A stretch of DNA of 64,000 nucleotides from Pedobacter sandarakinus (GTDB lineage: Bacteria; Bacteroidota; Bacteroidia; Sphingobacteriales; Sphingobacteriaceae): assembly GCF_026240095.1 (NCBI RefSeq), contig NZ_JAPIVG010000001.1, positions 1-64,000 on the forward strand, read 5' to 3'. Positions 47,791 to 57,975 of this stretch are shown here, one piece after another. The notes under the pieces are model-generated. The model was not told the DNA's origin, searched no databases, and worked only from the letters and a program-made list of their open reading frames with translations. The first letter of the stretch is position 1, and the number at the start of each line of letters is the position of its first letter. The position numbers and the translations under genes are program-made.

Positions 47791-48468
47791 ATGAACGTAC
47801 TAATTGTTGAAGATGAAAAAAGCCTTGCGCTGGAAATGGATGAATTCTTAAGCAAAGAAGGTTTTATTGTAGAACATGCCTGGAAAAAAGCATCTGCTGA
47901 AGAGAAGATCTTTGTAAACAATTACGATTTTATATTATTGGATTTAGGTTTGCCAGATGGCGATGGTTTTGAAGTGCTGGCCCAACTAAAAAGCTTTAAG
48001 GACCGCGATGATGCCGTAATAATTCTTACTGCCCGCAGCGCTGTCGACGACAGAATTAAAGGTTTGGATGATGGAGCAGATGACTACCTTCCTAAGCCAT
48101 TTTCACTTAACGAGCTTCTTGCACGGATGCACGCCATTACAAGGCGAAAACATAAATTGGATCGAAACGAAATAAATATCCACAACTTTCTCTTAAATAT
48201 TCAGAACAGAACGGTTTCTTTTGGCGATGAAAGACTAAACCTAACCAAAAAAGAGTATGAGATCTTCAACTATTTGGTACTCAACAAAAACCGTGTGGTA
48301 TCTAGAATGAGCTTAACAGAGCATGTTTGGGGCGATATTCTGGAAGTGAATTCAGATTCGAACTTTGTTGATGTTCATGTAAAAAACCTGCGTAAGAAAT
48401 TAGCTGCTGCAAACCCTATTGATTGGTTCGAAACGGTTAGAAGCATTGGCTATCGCATCAATTGTTAA
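47791..48468 (+). CDS. OmpR-family response regulator
   Basis: A 225-residue regulator. The receiver domain (residues 1-120) has the phosphoacceptor Asp51 in DFILLDLGLPDGDGF, the acidic pair in IVEDEKS and the conserved Lys in YLPKPFSLNELLAR. The C-terminal winged-helix domain (about 125-225) includes LTKKEYEIFNYLVLNKNRVVSR and DVHVKNLRKKL. The histidine kinase gene follows 10 bases downstream. Targets are unknown; it lies two genes from the SusC/SusD locus. Confidence 0.93.
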   Translation: MNVLIVEDEKSLALEMDEFLSKEGFIVEHAWKKASAEEKIFVNNYDFILLDLGLPDGDGFEVLAQLKSFKDRDDAVIILTARSAVDDRIKGLDDGADDYLPKPFSLNELLARMHAITRRKHKLDRNEINIHNFLLNIQNRTVSFGDERLNLTKKEYEIFNYLVLNKNRVVSRMSLTEHVWGDILEVNSDSNFVDVHVKNLRKKLAAANPIDWFETVRSIGYRINC

Positions 48469-48478
48469 TCAAACTTAA

Positions 48479-49789
48479 ATGAAGTTACAAGTTAAGTTTT
48501 CCCTTTACAATGCCGTCACCAAAATTTCCATCATATTACTCTTGGGGTTGATCATCTTATTTTCATTGGATAAACTCGCTTATAACCAACTGGATAACAG
48601 GCTTATCAAAAAGAAAAACAAAATTATTAAAAACCTCAGTGATAGCGAAATTGATACTCTGCTAAATAAGCAATCATCATTTACCGATTACAATATATTA
48701 AAAGAAGAATTTATCATCTTAACAGACATACCTGATAACCAGAAAGATTCTGTAGCCAACGTATATACCGAAAGAAGAGAAATTGAAGGGGATATTGAGG
48801 TCTATCGAATACTAAACTATAAATTTTCTTATCGAACAAATTGGTACAATTTAGAAATTGGAGAAACTATGACAACCCTTCAATCCATCAAAAATTCAAT
48901 CCGCTTTTATATGTTGATTGTGTTGGTAGGTACCTTATTGGTTACTTTAATTACTGACTATGCATTTTCTAACTTTTTACTGCGACCATTTTATCTCATT
49001 ATTGATAAAAAAATTAATCGCGTAGATGACCCTTCACATTACAACTATGAAAATATTCCCACCACAACCGATGATTTTAAAATATTAGACAACAGCGTGA
49101 ATTCATTAATGCGAAAGATCAATACGCTGTTCGCATTAGAGAAACAGTTTATCGCCAATGTTTCGCATGAGTTACTTACTCCCATTTCGATCCTAAGTAC
49201 CCGTTTTGAAAACATGCTTAACACCCCTTCTATCCCCGAAGAACACGAAAACAAAATTTATGCCTCTTTAAAAACTTTAAACCGGCTGAAAGTTGTAATC
49301 AACAGCCTGCTCCTGATATCTAAAGTAGAAAATAACCAATACCTTAAAACGGAACAGATTAATTTAAGAAGCGAACTTGCAGACGTTTACGACGAGTTAG
49401 AAGATCGAATTGCCGATAAGCAAATTAAGTATGCTGCTAAGTTTCCAGATGATTTTACTTTAACCGGAAATCAGCCTTTAATACATACGTTGTTGATGAA
49501 TCTACTAAGCAATGCAGTGAAATACAATCGGGTTGGTGGAGAAATCTCAATTATCGGAAAGTTTAATTCACAAGGCTACACGTTAACCATTTCAGATACT
49601 GGCATAGGAATGAGTGAGCAGTTCCTGGAAAATGCATTCGACCGTTTTAAACGTGGCAATTCGGAAGAAAATGGTTTTGGTTTAGGTTTGGCAATCGTAG
49701 AAAGTATTGCAAGTTTTCACAAAATTGGGATCACCGTAACCTCAGTAGAAATGCAGGGCACTACTGTTTCTCTAAGTTTCGACACCTAA
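48479..49789 (+). CDS. Membrane sensor histidine kinase
   Basis: A 436-residue kinase with two membrane helices (about residues 13-32 and 142-162) enclosing an extracytoplasmic domain of about 110 residues with no known fold. A linker follows, then the phosphoacceptor helix NVSHELLTPISIL (His230). The ATPase domain has LMNLLSNAVKYN (N box), ISDTGIGMSEQ (G1) and GFGLGLAIVESIA (G2). It pairs with the adjacent response regulator. The signal is not known. Confidence 0.92.
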   Translation: MKLQVKFSLYNAVTKISIILLLGLIILFSLDKLAYNQLDNRLIKKKNKIIKNLSDSEIDTLLNKQSSFTDYNILKEEFIILTDIPDNQKDSVANVYTERREIEGDIEVYRILNYKFSYRTNWYNLEIGETMTTLQSIKNSIRFYMLIVLVGTLLVTLITDYAFSNFLLRPFYLIIDKKINRVDDPSHYNYENIPTTTDDFKILDNSVNSLMRKINTLFALEKQFIANVSHELLTPISILSTRFENMLNTPSIPEEHENKIYASLKTLNRLKVVINSLLLISKVENNQYLKTEQINLRSELADVYDELEDRIADKQIKYAAKFPDDFTLTGNQPLIHTLLMNLLSNAVKYNRVGGEISIIGKFNSQGYTLTISDTGIGMSEQFLENAFDRFKRGNSEENGFGLGLAIVESIASFHKIGITVTSVEMQGTTVSLSFDT

Positions 49790-49798
49790 TATTGGCAA

Positions 49799-49830
49799 TT
49801 GTAAGCCCAAAATACAATTTTGTACCTTTG
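49799..49830 (+). promoter_or_regulatory. Promoter of the 7TM-zinc ribbon gene
   Basis: TTG (49799-49801), 21 bases, TACCTTTG (49823-49830), a near-consensus Bacteroidota promoter. It ends five bases before the ATG at 49836, so the mRNA should have almost no leader. The gene is therefore transcribed apart from the kinase gene. Confidence 0.65.
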
Positions 49831-49835
49831 CTTTA

Positions 49836-51740
49836 ATGCAAGTGCAAATCAGTTTTATAAAAATACTGGCGGTAATATTTGGCCTCGTAGTGTTGTGTAC
49901 GTTAGAGACATTAGCGCAAAAACCTGTAGCAATACAAGATAGTGTAGACCAACATATTTTTACTTTTAGAGAAATTGAAGTGTTGGAAGATCCCAACGAG
50001 CAATTTACGTTTGAACAGGTTAAAAGCAGTGAATTTAGCAGTAGGTTTAAACCAAGCGCCAGCAGCACACCACAAACAAAAAACCTAAATAAGAGCTACT
50101 GGTTTAGAATTAAAGTTAAAGGCAACCCAAACGCCGACAAAACCTTCCTGCTTGAGTTCTTTGATCAAACAATCGATCAAATAAGTGCTTACATCCCACA
50201 GAAAAATCATATTTATCATGTAGCGGAACTGGGAGATGCAAACCCATTTTACAAGCGGATAATTAGCCACAAAAATTTCGAAATACCCATCCAAAATACT
50301 GGCAATGATGTAGATACCTACTATTTCAAAATCAAATCATCTCAAATTTCCGATATCATTATCGTGCTTAGGTCGGCAGAGTGGTTTATTGCCTATGCAC
50401 TAAACGAGTATTTTTATTTCGGCATCTTCTACGGGATGATTTTAGTGTTTAGTTTCTACAACCTCATTATGTACTTAGCCATCAGGCAAAAGCAGTACCT
50501 CTATTATGTATTGTATAACTTAAGCGTGGGTCTTTTCGAGATAGCTACTGACGGCATAGCTTACCAGTATTTATGGCCAAATTCACCAAATTGGAATCAG
50601 GTGGCTTACGCATTTGCTCTTTGTGCAACAAGCATTTTTGCCTTGCTATTTACCAGGGAATTACTTTTAGTTAGGGCTAAGGCACCTAAATTGAACCGAC
50701 TTATTGTTGGCGTAATCATACTGAGATTAGTCTTTTTTATCTATTGCTACTTTCTAAACCAAAATGCATTTAGCTACAAATTTATAGACGCTGTTCCTTT
50801 ATCTGTAGCATTTTTTACAGGAATTTACATCTACAAAAAGGGCTACAAGCCTGCACGTTTCTTTGTATTGGGCTACAGCTTTCTTTTTGCAGGGTTTACG
50901 CTCAAATTCTTAATTATGCTGGGTATTGCCTGGCTTAATTTTGGGGCGCTTAGTTACTATAGCCTAAGCTTCTGCTTCGTATTAGAAATGGTGTTTCTAT
51001 CTTTTGCTATAGGCGATAAAGTACGGATTTTAAAGATAAACAGAGATAAGGCACAGCAGAAGATAATCCGCCAAATGGATGTTAATGCCAAGCTAAAAGA
51101 CACGATTAACCAAGAATTAGAAACTAAGGTAGAAGAACGAACAAGAGAAGTATATCACAAATCCTTAATCATTGAAAGTAAAAATCAGGCCTTAGAGGAA
51201 GCAAATTTACTTTTGCAACAACAGGCCGAAGAGATTTCCCGTATGAATGTTCTGTTGGAGCAAGATAATGAAGAGTTGCAAACCAACGTAGAAAAGGTTA
51301 CCAGAGATCGGGTAATGAACACCGAGGTCGATTTTGAAGAATTTAGTAAGATATATCCAGATAAAGAATCTTGTTTTGAGTTTCTTGCCAACTTAAAATG
51401 GAGCAAAGGCTATCATTGTCGTAAATGCAACAATGACCACTATTTTGCTGGCCACATCATGTACAGTCGCCGTTGCAGCAAATGCGGTTATGAAGAATCT
51501 GTTACCACGTATACCGTTTTTCACAATACTCGTATTCCGCTAAATAAGGCATTCTATATGATATTTTTGATCTACTCAACCAATGGAAAAATTTCGTCAC
51601 ACAAACTTTCTGAGCTACTTACCATAAGGCAGAGTACCTGCTGGACGTTTGGCTCGAGGATTAAAAAAGTAATGGAAGAGCGCAAAAGATTACTTAAAAA
51701 AACCGGTAAAGATGGGTGGAGTCAGCTGGTTATTGAATAA
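49836..51740 (+). CDS. 7TMR-DISM receptor fused to an IS1595-type zinc-ribbon DNA-binding domain
   Basis: A 634-residue membrane protein. A signal peptide ends TLAQ (about residue 28). A beta-rich sensor (about 40-180; SYWFRIKVKGN, TYYFKIKSSQISDIIIVLR) matches the 7TMR-DISMED2 type. Residues 185-395 hold seven membrane helices (FYFGIFYGMILVFSFYNLIMY onward), 395-500 a charged coiled coil, and 505-634 a region similar to the N-terminal part of IS1595 transposases: KESCFEFLANLKW, zinc pairs Cys528/531 and Cys547/550, TVFHNTRIPLNKAF and SSHKLSELLTI. The DDE catalytic domain is absent. It could be a membrane-tethered regulator of the SusC/SusD genes next to it. The domain calls are from motifs; the function is inferred. 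Confidence 0.85.
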   Translation: MQVQISFIKILAVIFGLVVLCTLETLAQKPVAIQDSVDQHIFTFREIEVLEDPNEQFTFEQVKSSEFSSRFKPSASSTPQTKNLNKSYWFRIKVKGNPNADKTFLLEFFDQTIDQISAYIPQKNHIYHVAELGDANPFYKRIISHKNFEIPIQNTGNDVDTYYFKIKSSQISDIIIVLRSAEWFIAYALNEYFYFGIFYGMILVFSFYNLIMYLAIRQKQYLYYVLYNLSVGLFEIATDGIAYQYLWPNSPNWNQVAYAFALCATSIFALLFTRELLLVRAKAPKLNRLIVGVIILRLVFFIYCYFLNQNAFSYKFIDAVPLSVAFFTGIYIYKKGYKPARFFVLGYSFLFAGFTLKFLIMLGIAWLNFGALSYYSLSFCFVLEMVFLSFAIGDKVRILKINRDKAQQKIIRQMDVNAKLKDTINQELETKVEERTREVYHKSLIIESKNQALEEANLLLQQQAEEISRMNVLLEQDNEELQTNVEKVTRDRVMNTEVDFEEFSKIYPDKESCFEFLANLKWSKGYHCRKCNNDHYFAGHIMYSRRCSKCGYEESVTTYTVFHNTRIPLNKAFYMIFLIYSTNGKISSHKLSELLTIRQSTCWTFGSRIKKVMEERKRLLKKTGKDGWSQLVIE

Positions 51741-51754
51741 TTTATAGACTACAT

Positions 51755-51807
51755 TACCTTGGAATTGCATTTTTTTCAATGGAAAAAATACAAAATTCGC
51801 CAAGGTA
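51755..51807. other. Long imperfect hairpin between the 7TM gene and susC
   Basis: Outer arms TACCTTGG (51755-51762) and CCAAGGTA (51800-51807) are perfect. Inside them AATT pairs with AATT, and a T-rich arm (51770-51777) pairs with an A-rich arm (51782-51788). It starts 15 bases after the stop of the 7TM gene and may terminate its transcript, although the T tail is poor. The right arm overlaps the first direct repeat. Confidence 0.5.
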
Positions 51808-51822
51808 TTTAAGCGTATCAAA
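51804..51822 (+). repeat. Imperfect 19-bp direct repeat, copy 1
   Basis: GGTATTTAAGCGTATCAAA. It matches copy 2 (51896-51914) at 17 of 19 positions, with the final 12 bases (AAGCGTATCAAA) identical. It lies about 190 bases before the predicted susC promoter and could be a regulator-binding site. Confidence 0.6.
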
Positions 51823-51895
51823 CTACCACAATAATTCTAATGTATATTGCTGTTCAAGCCCTGGTTATCAGGCAATAAACCGTGGAAGCAACAGC

Positions 51896-51914
51896 GGTAC
51901 TAAAGCGTATCAAA
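51896..51914 (+). repeat. Imperfect 19-bp direct repeat, copy 2
   Basis: GGTACTAAAGCGTATCAAA. The two copies start 92 bases apart and read in the same direction. This copy lies about 57 bases upstream of the predicted TTG box of susC, a normal distance for an activator site. Confidence 0.6.
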
Positions 51915-51970
51915 AAACTCTCAAAAGTCTAATTATCAAATACTTACGATAAATTTAATACTGAAAAAAC

Positions 51971-52002
51971 TTGTTTTTAACATGAATTGAGCGTTAACTT
52001 TA
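51971..52002 (+). promoter_or_regulatory. Candidate promoter of susC
   Basis: TTG (51971-51973), 21 bases, TAACTTTA (51995-52002), which differs from the -7 consensus only in its last base. A weak -7 element fits a promoter that needs an activator. Predicted leader about 25 bases. Confidence 0.45.
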
Positions 52003-52032
52003 CCTCATAATAATATAACAAAGCAAAAAAAT

Positions 52033-54945
52033 ATGAGAACAAAGTTTACATTGCTTATGGTATTTTTTCTTTGCGCCGTCTCCTTTAGTATGGCTCAAGA
52101 CATTATCATTAAAGGGCAGGTGAAAGATCAAAAAGGACTGCCGCTTCCAGGGGTATCCGTAAAAGTCAAAGGTACTAGTCAAGGGGCTTCTACCTCAGAC
52201 AATGGCGGCTATACCATATCGGCACCACAAAATGCCATATTGGAATTTTCATTTATCGGATTTAAATCCATAGAAGAACCCATAGGCAACCGCACGAACA
52301 TTAACATTACTTTATCTGATGACAATCAACAGCTGAATGAGGTAGTAGTTATTGGTTATGGTACTACAACCAAAAAAGATCTAACCACTTCGGTAGTTTC
52401 TGTCTCTTCAAAAGATTTAGAAAATCAACCCATAACTAATCCACTCCAGGCCATTCAGGGGCGAGCGGCAGGTGTACAAGTAAGCTCGCAATCTGGTAAA
52501 CCCGGGGCAGGTATTTCAATAAGTATTAGGGGTAATACATCTATTACGGCTTCTAATAGCCCGTTATATGTAATAGATGGGGTTACTTCCAGAGATGCTA
52601 GCTTTCTAAATGCCAATGACATTGAAACGATGACCATTTTGAAAGATGCTTCTGCAGCTGCGATTTATGGATCCAGTGGTGCCAACGGTGTGGTATTAAT
52701 CACAACAAAAAAAGGCAGTTCAGGCAAGTTAAAAGTGGCTTTCAATGCTTTTACAGGCTTCTCCAACTTCTGGCAAACGCAAGATGTTTTGAACAACGAT
52801 CAATATATATCTTTAATGCGAGAACTGGGCTACACATCTTTCGGGGGCACAAACAATACAGATTGGCAGAAAGAAACCTTTGGTACAGGAATGCAAAACC
52901 AATATCAAACATCTATTTCCGGTGGTGTAAAAGGTGGGCAGTACTATTTTTCCACAGGTTACCAGCAAGATAAAGGGGTTGTTGCACCAGCAAAGTTAGA
53001 TCGAATAACCGCTAACTTCAATGGTTCGCAAAACATTACACCTTGGTTGAAACTTACCGGAAACGCTGTTTTAACTTCAAGCAACTCTATTGATGTAGGC
53101 GATAACAGTAGCGTATCTCGTGGTGGTGTAATTCTAGGTGCGCTTACTACGCCACCAACCATCGGCATCTTTGAACCTAACGGGCAATATACAACCATCC
53201 CTAATGCAGGTGGATGGGACAATCCACTTGCCCTGGCTTTCGGCTCAGACAATAAAAACCGGAATTTCAGGTTTATTGGCGCTTTTGGCGCACAGCTTAA
53301 CTTCACCAAAGATTTGTATCTGAAATCAACTATCAGTACCAATTCAAACAGAAACTTTTATCGCTATTTTACAGATAATTTCTTAACCACTTATGGCCGC
53401 CAGGAAAGAGGTGTTTACAGAGATAATACAACTAAGGATCATGTTTGGCTAAACGAAAATATTTTAAACTACACAAAAAATGTAGGTAAGAATGCATTTA
53501 CGGCTACAGGTGGTTACACTTTACAGTCGTCAGATTATCAATACAAAAACAATGAGGTAACCCGTTTTTACGATGTAAGCGGGAAACCAATTATTCCATC
53601 CGTTGCTTTAACAGTACCTCAGCGGGCGCAATGGAGCAAGCAATCTTACCTGGCCAGAATTACTTACGCTTACGATAGTAAATATTTGTTTAGCTCTAAC
53701 TTCAGGGCCGATGGTTCTTCCCGCTTTGCGAAAGAAAACCGTTTTGGTTACTTCCCATCATTTTCTGCCGGATGGAGAATTTCTGGAGAAAACTTTATGA
53801 AAGACAGCAAAACCATTAACGACTTAAAAGTTCGTGGTAGCTGGGGTAAGGTAGGTAACGACGAAGGTATTGGAGACTATGCATATTTAAAACTTTATAG
53901 TGTTAACGCACAAGGTGAATATAATTTGCAAAACCCAGCCAACGACAACCTATCCTGGGAAAAAACTACTCAAACCAATATTGGGCTAGATTTATCTATG
54001 TTTAAAAGCAGAATTACATTTACTGCTGATGCTTATCTAAAGAAAACGAACGATTTGTTGATTAACGTTCAGCTGCCACCATCATCGGGTTTTGGTAGCC
54101 AGGCGTACAACGTAGGTTCTATGGAAAACAAAGGCTTGGAATTTGTGCTATCAACCAAAAACTTCGACCGTGAAAAGTTCCAGTGGACTACTGATTTAAA
54201 CTTCTCGTTAAACAGGAACAAGGTAACAGACTTGGGTGCAACAACACAGTCACTAGATTTTGCAGGCATCTACGAGCGTGATGCCGCAGTTCGGGTGGTT
54301 AAAGACCGGCCATTGGGCAGTTTTTACGGGTATGTATTTACTGGTGTAAACCCAACAACAGGTGCTGCACATTATGCCGATACCAACGGCAATGGCGTTA
54401 CAGGTTCTGCAGATCCTGGAGATAGAACATTTATAGGTTCCGCACAACCTAAATTTATCTATGGAATCACAAACAACTTTGTATTGGGAAACTGGGGATT
54501 TAATTTCTTCTTCCAGGGTGTTCAAGGTAGCCAGTTGTTCAATGCATCCAGAATTGATTTGGAAGGCATGTTTGATTCCAAAAATCAATCAGCAGCAGTG
54601 TTAAACAGGTGGACTACGCCAGGACAAATTACCAACGTACCAAAAGCATTAAGGAGTAGTTCTGAAAACTCGCTAACATCTAGTCGTTTTGTTGAAGATG
54701 CCTCTTATTTAAGATTGAAAACGGCCACACTATCTTATAACTTCGGCTCCACTATATTAGAAAAGCTGAAGATGAGCAAGGTGACTATTTTTGCGACTGG
54801 TTATAATGTGCTCACATTTACAAAATACTCTGGTTTAGATCCAGAGGTAAATGTGAATGCGGCAAATGGGCCGTCTATGGGTGTAGATTATGGTACCTAC
54901 CCGCAGTCGAGAAGTATATTATTCGGTATTAATGTTGGATTTTAA
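52033..54945 (+). CDS. SusC/RagA-type TonB-dependent outer-membrane transporter
   Basis: A 970-residue outer-membrane receptor. The signal peptide ends FSMAQ (about residue 22). A carboxypeptidase-D-like domain follows (IIKGQVKDQKGLPLPGVSVK, residues 25-100), then the plug with LNEVVVIGYGTTTKKDLTTS (TonB-box and SusC signature), LQAIQGRAAGVQV and IRGNTSITASNSPLYVIDGV, and a 22-strand barrel ending in FGINVGF. It imports oligosaccharides with TonB energy, acting with the SusD lipoprotein encoded next. No ECF/FecR pair is adjacent and it lacks an N-terminal signalling STN domain, so induction is not by that route. Confidence 0.96.
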   Translation: MRTKFTLLMVFFLCAVSFSMAQDIIIKGQVKDQKGLPLPGVSVKVKGTSQGASTSDNGGYTISAPQNAILEFSFIGFKSIEEPIGNRTNINITLSDDNQQLNEVVVIGYGTTTKKDLTTSVVSVSSKDLENQPITNPLQAIQGRAAGVQVSSQSGKPGAGISISIRGNTSITASNSPLYVIDGVTSRDASFLNANDIETMTILKDASAAAIYGSSGANGVVLITTKKGSSGKLKVAFNAFTGFSNFWQTQDVLNNDQYISLMRELGYTSFGGTNNTDWQKETFGTGMQNQYQTSISGGVKGGQYYFSTGYQQDKGVVAPAKLDRITANFNGSQNITPWLKLTGNAVLTSSNSIDVGDNSSVSRGGVILGALTTPPTIGIFEPNGQYTTIPNAGGWDNPLALAFGSDNKNRNFRFIGAFGAQLNFTKDLYLKSTISTNSNRNFYRYFTDNFLTTYGRQERGVYRDNTTKDHVWLNENILNYTKNVGKNAFTATGGYTLQSSDYQYKNNEVTRFYDVSGKPIIPSVALTVPQRAQWSKQSYLARITYAYDSKYLFSSNFRADGSSRFAKENRFGYFPSFSAGWRISGENFMKDSKTINDLKVRGSWGKVGNDEGIGDYAYLKLYSVNAQGEYNLQNPANDNLSWEKTTQTNIGLDLSMFKSRITFTADAYLKKTNDLLINVQLPPSSGFGSQAYNVGSMENKGLEFVLSTKNFDREKFQWTTDLNFSLNRNKVTDLGATTQSLDFAGIYERDAAVRVVKDRPLGSFYGYVFTGVNPTTGAAHYADTNGNGVTGSADPGDRTFIGSAQPKFIYGITNNFVLGNWGFNFFFQGVQGSQLFNASRIDLEGMFDSKNQSAAVLNRWTTPGQITNVPKALRSSSENSLTSSRFVEDASYLRLKTATLSYNFGSTILEKLKMSKVTIFATGYNVLTFTKYSGLDPEVNVNAANGPSMGVDYGTYPQSRSILFGINVGF

Positions 54946-54956
54946 GAATTAAGAAA

Positions 54957-56381
54957 ATGAAACTAAAAATATATTCGTTAGTAACTGCCGCAGCGTTAAC
55001 AATAACCCTGCAAAGCGGATGCAAAAAAGATTTCCTTGAGAAACAACCATTTAACCAGGTAACTGGCGATGTCGCATTTACAACTGCTGCCGGAGCAGAA
55101 AAGTTAATGGCAGGTGCTTACGGCGGTATGTATAACGACTACCACATCTGGGACTATATGATTAACGGCGATGTAACTGCCGATAATGCTTATGCTGGTG
55201 GTGATAATCCGGCGAACATCCAGATCGATTTATTTACCACAAATGCTACGAACGGCAATGTAGGGAGAGACTGGAGTGGGCTTTATTCGAACATTAAAAA
55301 TGCAAATGAGGTGCTAGAAAACGTACCCAACATTCAAGATCCAGCGCTGGATGCTAACGGCAGAAGAAACCAAATTATCGGCGAGGCATCGACGTTGAGG
55401 GCATATTTTTATTTTCACCTGGTTAGGCTTTGGGGTGGCGTACCACTCATCCTAAAATCGCCAACCTCGCTGGAAGAAATGCAAAAACCTCGTGCAAGTG
55501 TTGATGAGGTTTACGCACAGATTATCAAAGATTTGGAAACAGCATTACCCAATGTACGAACAACGGCATCAAACAAAGGTATAATAACAAAAGGGATCGT
55601 AAACGCTTTATTAGCAAAGGTTTATGCTTCAAAACCTAGCCCTGATTGGACTAAAGTGCAACAATATGCAGATGCTACCATAAATGGAGGATATAGTTTA
55701 TTGCCGTCTTTCGACCAGTTATTTGATGGCGTACATAAAAACAACAGCGAATCTATCTGGGAGATGCAGTACGATGGTTGGGGTGGTCCAAGTGGTCGTG
55801 GTAACTGGATGCCTAGCGTTTTGGTAGGCACTGGCTGGAAGCGTTTCTGCACGCCAACTAACGATTTGGTGGCGGCTTACGATTCGGAAGGTGACATGAT
55901 CCGTAAGAACTCCAGCATCAGTTTTAAAAACGTGAATACTGAGGGTTGGTCTGATGACTATTGGTCTAAATCTAACTACCCTTACATTAATAAATATCGC
56001 GTAGATGATTTATCTAATTCGTACATTATTCGCCTTGCAGATATTAAGCTTTTAAAGGCAGAAGCCTTAAATGAATTGAGTGCATCAGGATGGTCTTCAG
56101 CAGCAAGCATTGTAAACGAGATCCGTAACAGAGTAAATTTACCTGCAACCTCTGCAACCGATCAGGCAAGCATGCGCTTGGCTATCGAGAAAGAGCGCAG
56201 ATTAGAATTGGCATTTGAAGGCCATCGTTGGTTCGATTTATTAAGAACAAACCGTGCTATACCCGTTATGAATGCACAGAAAAATGGAAGTGGCGCTAGC
56301 TTAAACTATAATGTTACTGCTGCAAAATTGTTATTCCCAATTCCGCAGGCAGAACGTGATAGAAATCCGAATATTCGTTAA
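54957..56381 (+). CDS. SusD/RagB-type glycan-binding lipoprotein
   Basis: A 474-residue surface lipoprotein, Cys22 following LTITLQSG in the signal. KKDFLEKQPFNQVTGDVAFTT is the SusD N-terminal motif, and YSNIKNANEVLENVPNI, IGEASTLRAYFYFHLVRLWGGVPLI and LAFEGHRWFDLLRT are family signatures of the TPR-like fold and C-terminal domain. It forms a lid on the adjacent SusC transporter and captures sugars. The gene follows susC by 11 bases. Confidence 0.96.
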   Translation: MKLKIYSLVTAAALTITLQSGCKKDFLEKQPFNQVTGDVAFTTAAGAEKLMAGAYGGMYNDYHIWDYMINGDVTADNAYAGGDNPANIQIDLFTTNATNGNVGRDWSGLYSNIKNANEVLENVPNIQDPALDANGRRNQIIGEASTLRAYFYFHLVRLWGGVPLILKSPTSLEEMQKPRASVDEVYAQIIKDLETALPNVRTTASNKGIITKGIVNALLAKVYASKPSPDWTKVQQYADATINGGYSLLPSFDQLFDGVHKNNSESIWEMQYDGWGGPSGRGNWMPSVLVGTGWKRFCTPTNDLVAAYDSEGDMIRKNSSISFKNVNTEGWSDDYWSKSNYPYINKYRVDDLSNSYIIRLADIKLLKAEALNELSASGWSSAASIVNEIRNRVNLPATSATDQASMRLAIEKERRLELAFEGHRWFDLLRTNRAIPVMNAQKNGSGASLNYNVTAAKLLFPIPQAERDRNPNIR

Positions 56382-56520: not shown

Positions 56521-57975
56521 ATGAAATTAACCTTTAATATTTGTATCGTTTTCAGTATACTTTTATCGGCCTGCGCCTGTAGAAAAACTACCAGCTCGAG
56601 TACTGAAACCAACAACAGCAGCAATCCGACCGCTAACGAACCAGTGAAAACGGAAGTTGCCTTCTGGTTAACAAAAGGTGATCAGTCTGAATTATTGAAA
56701 AAACAAAATGTAGCTTTAAATTTTGCAGAGGCAACCAATGCTAATCCTACCATCGAGGTAGATCCGGGTACAACATTCCAAACAATTGATGGTTTCGGTT
56801 ATACCCTAACGGGAGGAAGCGCCACATTAATTAATACTTTGCCAGCGACTGACAAGGATAAATTGTTAAATGAACTTTTTGGATCAGAAGAAACCGGCAT
56901 CCGTGTAAACTACATCCGTGTAAGCATTGGGGCATCAGATTTAAGCGCTAATCCTTTTACGTATAATGAATTACAGAACGGAGAAACAGACGAATCTTTA
57001 AGTAAATTTTCTATTGAGAAAGAACAGGCAGACTTAATTCCTGTGTTGCAAAAGATTGTAGCCATTAACCCTGCAATTAAAATATTAGGATCGCCATGGA
57101 CGGCGCCAACCTGGATGAAAACGAATAAAAGTTTTATTGGCGGCAGCTTAAAGCCAGAATACTACCAAACGTATGCGAAATATCTGGTTAAATATATCCA
57201 GGCAATGAAGGCGGAAGGCATTACAATAGATGCCATCACGCCACAAAATGAACCACTACATCCTGGTAATAACCCAAGCATGTATATGGAAGCCATAGAC
57301 CAGGCCAATTTCATAAAAACTGCACTCGGACCAATTTTCAAAAGCAGTGGTATCACAACAAAAATAATCGTTTACGACCATAACGCCGATAAACCTGAAT
57401 ACCCCATTACCATTTTAAACGATGCGGAAGCTAAAAAATATGTTGACGGATCGGCATTTCACCTATATGCAGGACCAATATCTGCCCTTACCCAGGTACA
57501 CAATGCCCACCCTGATAAAAATGTGTACTTTACAGAACAATGGGTTGGCGGCCCGAGTAATTTTGGAGAAGATTTAAAATGGCATGTTTCTACGCTGATA
57601 GTGGGTGCCACCAGAAACTGGAGTAAAAATGTACTGGAATGGAATCTTGCTGCCGACCAGAATTACAACCCGCACACTGATAAAGGCGGCTGTACCTCTT
57701 GCCTTGGTGCGTTAACCATAACACCGGGCATAAGTAGAAATGTGGCATACTATGTAATTGCTCATGCTTCTAAATTTGTACCAACGGGTTCTGTAAGGAT
57801 TGCTTCAAACATCACCAGCAATTTGCAAAACGTGGCATTTAAAACCCCCGAAGGCAAGATTGTACTTGTGGTTTGCAATAATAACAATAGCGAAACGGCA
57901 TTTAACATTAAGTACAATGGTAAAATAGTTTCTAGCAACTTAGCGCAGGGTGCTGTTGCCACTTATGTTTGGTAA
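56521..57975 (+). CDS. GH30-family glycoside hydrolase lipoprotein
   Basis: A 484-residue secreted enzyme. A lipoprotein-type signal (FSILLSACAC) is followed by a Ser/Thr/Asn-rich linker, then a (beta/alpha)8 barrel: PGTTFQTIDGFGYTLTGG, LGSPWTAPTWMKTN, TPQNEPLHPG with the acid/base Glu244, and YFTEQWVGG with the nucleophile Glu339. A beta-sandwich of GH30 type surrounds it (start near residue 80 and from 415 on). GH30 includes glucosylceramidases and endo-beta-1,6-glucanases; with a SusC/SusD pair the second, acting on fungal-type beta-glucan, is attractive but unproven. A terminator follows, so the locus is three genes. Confidence 0.92.
   Translation: MKLTFNICIVFSILLSACACRKTTSSSTETNNSSNPTANEPVKTEVAFWLTKGDQSELLKKQNVALNFAEATNANPTIEVDPGTTFQTIDGFGYTLTGGSATLINTLPATDKDKLLNELFGSEETGIRVNYIRVSIGASDLSANPFTYNELQNGETDESLSKFSIEKEQADLIPVLQKIVAINPAIKILGSPWTAPTWMKTNKSFIGGSLKPEYYQTYAKYLVKYIQAMKAEGITIDAITPQNEPLHPGNNPSMYMEAIDQANFIKTALGPIFKSSGITTKIIVYDHNADKPEYPITILNDAEAKKYVDGSAFHLYAGPISALTQVHNAHPDKNVYFTEQWVGGPSNFGEDLKWHVSTLIVGATRNWSKNVLEWNLAADQNYNPHTDKGGCTSCLGALTITPGISRNVAYYVIAHASKFVPTGSVRIASNITSNLQNVAFKTPEGKIVLVVCNNNNSETAFNIKYNGKIVSSNLAQGAVATYVW

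Follow-up and report, generated by a model that had tools for sequence, protein, structure and literature searches.

A 7TM receptor with an IS1595 transposase-type C-terminal end as a probable regulator of an adjacent PUL in Pedobacter sandarakinus

The receptor encoded at positions 49836-51740 of a 64,000-nucleotide stretch of the Pedobacter sandarakinus genome (assembly GCF_026240095.1, contig NZ_JAPIVG010000001.1, positions 1 to 64,000; hereafter the window) is probably a membrane-tethered, one-component transcription regulator of the polysaccharide utilization locus (PUL) that lies next to it. In the best-supported reading of the sequence, its C-terminal end is a domesticated transposase DNA-binding region that would act directly on DNA, because the zinc ribbon and helix-turn-helix (HTH) are kept, the catalytic part is lost and the family is conserved, and because PUL or glycosidase genes are recurrent neighbours and a dedicated tandem repeat precedes susC. 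Its likely job would be control of the neighbouring glycan-utilization genes. The initial annotation of this region had proposed a ligand-sensing receptor made from a domesticated transposase domain, a proposal that is supported here but that had overlooked the PUL context. The features concerned are listed below.

49836..51740, forward strand: 7TM receptor with IS1595-type zinc ribbon and HTH, 634 aa (open reading frame, Pfam, NCBIfam)
49836..49919, forward strand: hydrophobic N-terminus, probable signal peptide, residues 1-28 (by eye; helix 2-26 in the model)
49971..50369, forward strand: periplasmic sensor domain 7TMR-DISMED2, residues 46-178 (PF07696, E 4e-30)
50406..51020, forward strand: seven-helix membrane domain 7TMR-DISM_7TM, residues 191-395 (PF07695, E 2e-44)
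51021..51275, forward strand: long helix or coiled coil leading off the last membrane helix (AlphaFold2 model, helix 371-478)
51360..51491, forward strand: IS1595 transposase zinc ribbon, CxxC pairs 528/531 and 547/550 (PF12760, invariant cysteines, model)
51525..51689, forward strand: HTH region, positions 1-56 of the IS1595 transposase profile, without the DDE part (NF033547)
51804..51820, forward strand: candidate operator copy 1, GGTATTTAAGCGTATCA (repeat in the receptor-susC gap)
51896..51912, forward strand: candidate operator copy 2, GGTACTAAAGCGTATCA (92 bp after copy 1)
52033..54945, forward strand: SusC-like TonB-dependent transporter (Pfam Plug, TonB_dep_Rec_b-barrel)
54957..56381, forward strand: SusD-like protein (Pfam SusD_RagB)
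56521..57975, forward strand: GH30 glycoside hydrolase (Pfam GH30; nearest solved relative 5ngk)

The single uninterrupted frame, the 7TMR-DISM receptor part and the coiled coil that the initial annotation had described are all recovered. The frame is open throughout, and both 7TMR-DISM models match well over their Pfam cut-offs, PF07696 with 105 bits (cut-off 22) and PF07695 with 152.4 bits (cut-off 29); they also match 38 of 38 aligned receptor rows. In the full-length AlphaFold2 model (mean pLDDT 81.2, pTM 0.58), residues 371-478 form one continuous helix that joins the last membrane helix to the coiled coil without a break; the stretch 474-498 has a pLDDT below 50. Domain order and the models predict an inner-membrane protein with a periplasmic sensor and a cytoplasmic C-terminal HTH. 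No histidine kinase, receiver or AraC HTH was found in the chain among Pfam matches at E<=1. A promoter of the receptor's own, which had also been claimed, is not established; the candidate TACCTTTG at 49823-49830 fits the consensus of a Bacteroidota -7 box, but lies only 5 nt 5' of the ATG.

The segment resembling the N-terminal part of IS1595 transposases, with intact CxxC pairs and without the catalytic DDE part, is likewise borne out. Zn_ribbon_IS1595 (PF12760) matches residues 509-552 with E 1.1e-4 and 22.5 bits when the whole protein is searched, 25.1 bits with the C-terminal part alone and 26.1 bits in a genome-wide six-frame search, against a curated cut-off of 25.4, and it matches 37 of 38 receptor rows at E<=0.01. 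The IS1595 transposase model NF033547 matches residues 564-618 with 28.3 bits (cut-off 75). A C-terminal part without any transposase profile match, one of the refuting outcomes set at first annotation, was thus not what was found. Since this match covers positions 1-56 of a profile of 215, the DDE part is absent, and since it falls behind the ribbon, the retained piece also takes in the helical region there; the description of the end as a transposase-derived zinc ribbon therefore stands for the ribbon, but not as a ribbon alone, the HTH having been retained too. The CxxC pairs 528/531 and 547/550 are invariant in two sets of aligned rows (10 of 10 and 38 of 38, window included). The nearest IS1595 frames, of 306-339 aa and all from one genome (G162), share 38-43% identity with the receptor C-terminal domain, and a PDB sequence search with the C-terminal part gave only chance-level matches (best E 0.29).

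An AlphaFold2 model of the last 140 residues, built on an alignment of 36 sequences including that of the window, has a mean pLDDT of 89.7 and shows ribbon strands and a three-helix, HTH-like arrangement. Foldseek returned no match at E<=1e-3 and a weak, mixed list. With VIA-align 2, HTH proteins lead (homeodomain, Lrp/AsnC, Trp repressor and the IstA transposase), aligned to residues 64-137 of the C-terminal model at Z 4-5.6, and a single zinc-ribbon row, an NADH pyrophosphatase, reaches Z 3.5. These matches, all at Z below 6, are consistent with the ribbon-HTH reading of the predicted structure and are not proof of it.

The SusC-like, SusD-like and GH30 genes downstream of the receptor form a PUL like a known fungal beta-1,6-glucan PUL. 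By phmmer the window GH30 scores 306 bits against 5ngk and 152 against the next entry, and 5ngk is BT3312, the endo-1,6-beta-glucanase of the 1,6-beta-glucan PUL of B. thetaiotaomicron (available part of PMC5481569). Gene order was compared over ORFs chosen mechanically by length. Among the named loci, which are the best 80 of 542, receptor, SusC, SusD and GH30 follow one another on one strand in 64 of 80, a GH30 relative lies on the receptor strand in 77 of the 79 scored (L091 is unscored for gene order, its receptor having been missed by the ORF picker), and a downstream frame of 760-776 aa is present in 17 of 80, the three that were scanned being GH3. In 69 further loci with 73 receptors, the next gene is SusC in 33 cases, GH30 in 5, another gene on the same strand in 26 and a second receptor in 2, and in the other 7 it is on the opposite strand or beyond the stretch. 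Those 26 same-strand genes include at least 10 GH2, 2 GH3, 1 GH20, 1 GH18, 1 alginate lyase and 3 MFS proteins (25 of 39 families covered). SusC/D or GH30 lies within the fetched stretch at 50 of these 69 loci and neither at 19, which stayed in the counts; the further loci may share organisms with the named ones, their receptors being distinct by protein identity only. The neighbourhood count proposed with the initial annotation thus places the receptor recurrently beside susC, susD and glycosidase genes. Two receptors stand directly in tandem at L185 and L186, and one locus among the best 80 of 542 (L111), on a contig labelled Beijerinckiaceae, carries a Bacteroidota-type receptor-SusCD-GH30 arrangement and is probably a misbinned contig.

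Between receptor and susC the window holds a direct repeat, GGTAnnnAAGCGTATCA, in two copies about 92 bp apart and less than 230 bp from susC. Within the organism's own genome of 4.09 Mb, exact copies of the full motif GGTANNNAAGCGTATCA are confined to 51804 and 51896; two more sites differ by one mismatch, and the reversed control gives none. Its ten-base core, AAGCGTATCA, is present at up to one mismatch in 62 of 65 receptor-susC gaps (64 named loci from the best 80 of 542, plus the window), as against 3 of 64 control stretches of 300 bp 5' of the receptor and 1 of 64 after GH30. Two or more copies, at any spacing, are found in 51 of the 65 gaps at up to one mismatch and in 61 at up to two. 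Taken alone the core is unspecific (11 sites in the own genome vs 6 for the control). A strict pair of cores on the same strand within 900 bp downstream is found for 67 of 158 distinct receptors, at a spacing of 86-94 bp in 66 and 79 bp in one, and strict pairs elsewhere in 2.6 Mb, counted per receptor, number 9 on the same strand and 3 on the other. By a looser score, 107 of 158 receptors beat all 40 Markov shuffles, about 4 of these being the chance expectation at a rate of one in 41, and the remaining 51 have no such pair within 900 bp downstream.

The exact core pair also tends to accompany the receptor across genomes. In a hand-read table of 69 genomes of the genus, where a best E<=1e-140 counted as receptor-positive and the pair could lie anywhere in the genome, it is present in 34 of 45 receptor genomes vs 2 of 24 others (Fisher 9e-8). 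In the family it was counted by hand in 111 of 301 genomes and the reversed pattern in 24 of 301, so that part of the family matches is background. The operator and family counts are not independent, because the receptors are related. A conserved tandem pair of candidate sites of about 17 bp can be recognized in the receptor-susC gap. Other words recur nearby: CTAATTATCA is conserved about 26 bp after the second core, towards susC, and CTGATAATCA-like words are found in many of these gaps (window 51741-52032 and relatives). No tandem pair was found for the divergent receptors L152-L157, three of which (L153, L154, L157), with a different HTH, have CGATTTCGGA in common in their receptor-susC gaps; it is a possible operator of that clade, with too few sequences to claim it.

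All 107 sites share the right half, AAGCGTATCA, as the score itself ensures. In copy 2, 79 of them have a left half of the GGT type, 16 of the TG[CT]G type, 4 of the TG[CT]T type and 8 of some other, and these types fall by clade when ordered along the receptor tree. The HTH string RQSTCW is carried by 100 of the 107 receptors with a pair and by 42 of the 51 without one, and is thus not sufficient to predict the site. At ribbon position 557, Thr is found in 70 of the 79 GGT-type receptors and in 1 of 16 of the TG[CT]G type; Ile, Leu or Met occupies this position in the other nine of the GGT type, and 12 of the 107 sites belong to neither type. A code linking residue 557 to the left half was set aside because of these exceptions and because the pattern follows phylogeny, which makes it a lead that does not count as evidence for the ribbon reading that half. 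That ribbon and HTH would read separate halves of the site is hypothesis only.

The receptor might also work otherwise. Its ribbon-HTH end might act by contact with a protein, such as RNA polymerase or another regulator, and leave the repeat to be read by, for example, a neighbouring response regulator. Zinc ribbons often serve protein contacts, a two-component pair (response regulator and histidine kinase) lies directly upstream of the window receptor at 47791-49789, the repeat is missing beside many receptors with an identical HTH string, and the Foldseek list, weak and mixed as it is, would also fit. However, such a pair precedes the receptor, as judged by eye, in only 18 of 80 named loci (best 80 of 542), which makes it less likely as the operator reader, and the repeat persists where the pair is missing. 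The repeat is furthermore specific to the receptor-susC gap and tracks the receptor in the genus, and the N-terminal ribbon-HTH region is what binds DNA in transposases. Action by protein contact is thus considered unlikely.

The repeat could also be an ordinary promoter or leader element of susC, unrelated to a receptor that controls something else. The closeness of the copies to susC in the window would fit this, as would the further conserved stretches, such as CTAATTATCA, that run on towards that gene. Against it stand the genus table, in which genomes without the receptor so seldom carry the core pair, and the related pairs found between receptor and GH30 where no susC comes next (L193, L199, L208, L218). 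An element of susC alone would therefore be a very improbable explanation, and direct binding of the repeat by the receptor is again the preferred reading.

The distribution of the protein was followed through draws of genomes at several ranks. In the phylum, the C-terminal part is matched in 46 of 296 genomes at E<=0.001, many of the matches being transposase-sized, and the receptor architecture is found in 9 of 296, as ten proteins with open frames of 632-718 aa whose translations align along the whole length. It was counted by hand in about 112 of 301 genomes of the family at E<=1e-140 and was found in 10 of 295 of the class at 1e-120, and is therefore frequent in the window's family and patchy elsewhere; at 1e-20 the full-length profile reaches 232 of 301 family genomes, many of them far more weakly, and the weaker matches are taken as plain 7TMR-DISM proteins. 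The best 80 of 542 named relatives, which for that reason lean towards close relatives, all match to residue 633 or 634 and come from Pedobacter, Chitinophaga, Mucilaginibacter, Dyadobacter, Siphonobacter, Nubsella and other genera. Counted across genomes, as had been suggested at first annotation, the architecture is not a lone case, and its recurrence in many genera indicates a fusion beyond chance. The own genome encodes a second receptor, on contig C12 (L149), for which no tandem pair was found and whose SusC and SusD genes lie about 4 kb downstream behind other genes. The two PF12760 matches over the cut-off in this genome are both receptors, and no IS1595 transposase was therefore found in it by PF12760. 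That the fusion is a chance or recent one, or a decaying transposase insertion with no selected function, is hardly credible, since the C-terminal part is plainly transposase-derived but the protein is conserved with invariant cysteines in Pedobacter, Mucilaginibacter, Chitinophaga, Dyadobacter, Siphonobacter and others, gene order is kept among the named loci (best 80 of 542) and the own genome yields PF12760 matches in its two receptors only.

When the ribbon-HTH domain is placed in a tree of 63 rows, some few of which are duplicates, the receptors and one orphan frame of 151 aa group together, apart from the transposase-sized proteins, with a support of 0.62. A single fusion event at the origin of the receptors is accordingly likely on this comparison of sequences, and at that support not proven. 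Several other proteins with this domain were seen along the way. The orphan 137-aa zinc ribbon-HTH protein at L168:1194-1607 falls beside divergent receptors in the tree with low support, and is a possible soluble relative of them. Frames of 154-203 aa at L022, L023 and L029, closely similar across three genomes from a single genus, correspond to the N-terminal part of the IS1595 transposase only and are perhaps another domesticated DNA-binding protein. Genome G162 (L158-L167) has fourteen IS1595-like frames of 306-339 aa, perhaps a domesticated and diversified set; ten of the fourteen stretches align mutually at about 71-84% over up to roughly 980 bp. As this alignment spans roughly the ORF only, no element ends could be defined, and a comparison of terminal inverted repeats with the operator was dropped. 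A catalytic region that seems degenerate on inspection by eye was noted at L011.

A working scheme for the receptor can be put together from these parts. DISMED2, which resembles carbohydrate-binding domains, would take up a glycan fragment in the periplasm, in the window perhaps a beta-1,6-gluco-oligosaccharide. The signal would travel via the 7TM domain and then the coiled coil to dimeric zinc ribbon-HTH heads, which, anchored at the membrane, would hold both GGTAnnnAAGCGTATCA sites at their spacing of about 92 bp, and transcription of susCD-GH30 would be turned on, activation and not repression being assumed by analogy. A more elaborate version can be offered tentatively, and is unlikely as a whole: the two anchored heads might bridge both repeats and bend or loop the promoter in the way that a transposase pairs its ends, with glycan sensing through the 7TM part setting the bridge, and operator choice might then have diverged in one half (GGTA vs TG[CT]G) while AAGCGTATCA was kept, perhaps with ribbon and HTH reading separate halves.

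If the proposal is true, these bacteria would have a new way to sense food, in which a 7TM receptor touches its own operator and switches PUL genes directly. It would be a further build of PUL regulator, apparently undescribed and common in the family to which the window belongs (about 112 of 301 genomes), and a bacterial case of a transposase domesticated into a signalling receptor. The predicted operator is open to immediate testing, and the receptor may be a handle on bacterial sensing of fungal beta-glucan.

Comparison with known systems places the protein among several families. As in other 7TMR-DISM receptors, DISMED2 and 7TM domains are present over their Pfam cut-offs, but the usual outputs of such receptors are kinase, cyclase, GGDEF or phosphatase domains, whereas here the output is a transposase zinc ribbon-HTH. 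As in IS1595-family transposases the zinc ribbon and the following HTH region are kept, but the DDE domain is missing and the remainder is fused to a receptor. Searches of open-access literature, some of them limited to the first papers listed, turned up no description of a 7TM receptor that ends in an IS1595-type segment, and no precedent for a transposase-derived output with a PUL operator. A DNA-binding 7TM receptor does have one as an architecture, because 7TMR-DISM is recorded in proteobacteria as joined to the ChiS-family DNA-binding domain, an HTH variant of the helix-sheet-helix kind (available part of PMC8092284). A 2024 review of hemicellulase regulation deals with HTCS, ECF and catabolite repression, and the words "7TM" and "transposase" do not occur in its available text (PMC10766802).

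Among PUL regulators, the receptor resembles HTCS in being membrane-anchored with direct-repeat sites, but it is without their kinase, receiver and AraC domains, and HTCS operators are predicted as direct repeats about 21 bp apart (available part of PMC3878776). The closer likeness is to SusR (BT3705) and SusR3 (BT3309), which are membrane-anchored single-protein PUL regulators with a periplasmic sensor and a C-terminal DNA-binding part, and SusR-like operators have been predicted as direct repeats with 67 or 77 bp between centres (available part of PMC3878776). A long-spaced direct repeat, at 86-94 bp in 66 of 67 strict pairs, is likewise the candidate operator at the PUL that the window receptor would regulate. 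Unlike in the SusR type, however, its sensor, membrane and DNA-binding parts appear to come from other families. In the B. thetaiotaomicron 1,6-beta-glucan PUL, bt3309-3314 (SusCD, GH30_3 and GH3), the regulator is the SusR-type BT3309 (available part of PMC5481569). In the phylum draw, 58 of 296 genomes contain GH30 relatives at E<=1e-60, and 20 GH30 loci fetched from these have a receptor match in none and SusC in 13. By eye, a large propeller-like protein adjoins SusC at five of the 13 (L299, L304, L310, L311, L314), and the two of these regulators that were scanned (L311, L314), used as stand-ins for the SusR type, are Reg_prop, Y_Y_Y and GerE proteins, with none of these domains in the window receptor. 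Another of the 13 (L300) has a hybrid sensor that on scanning is an HTCS with an AraC HTH, and at several of the other receptor-less SusC loci the fetched stretch ends at SusC, with the regulator out of view. Because some receptor-less GH30/SusCD loci and the B. thetaiotaomicron PUL have regulators of other builds, the window receptor seems to take the place of SusR with other parts and the same unusual long-spaced site.
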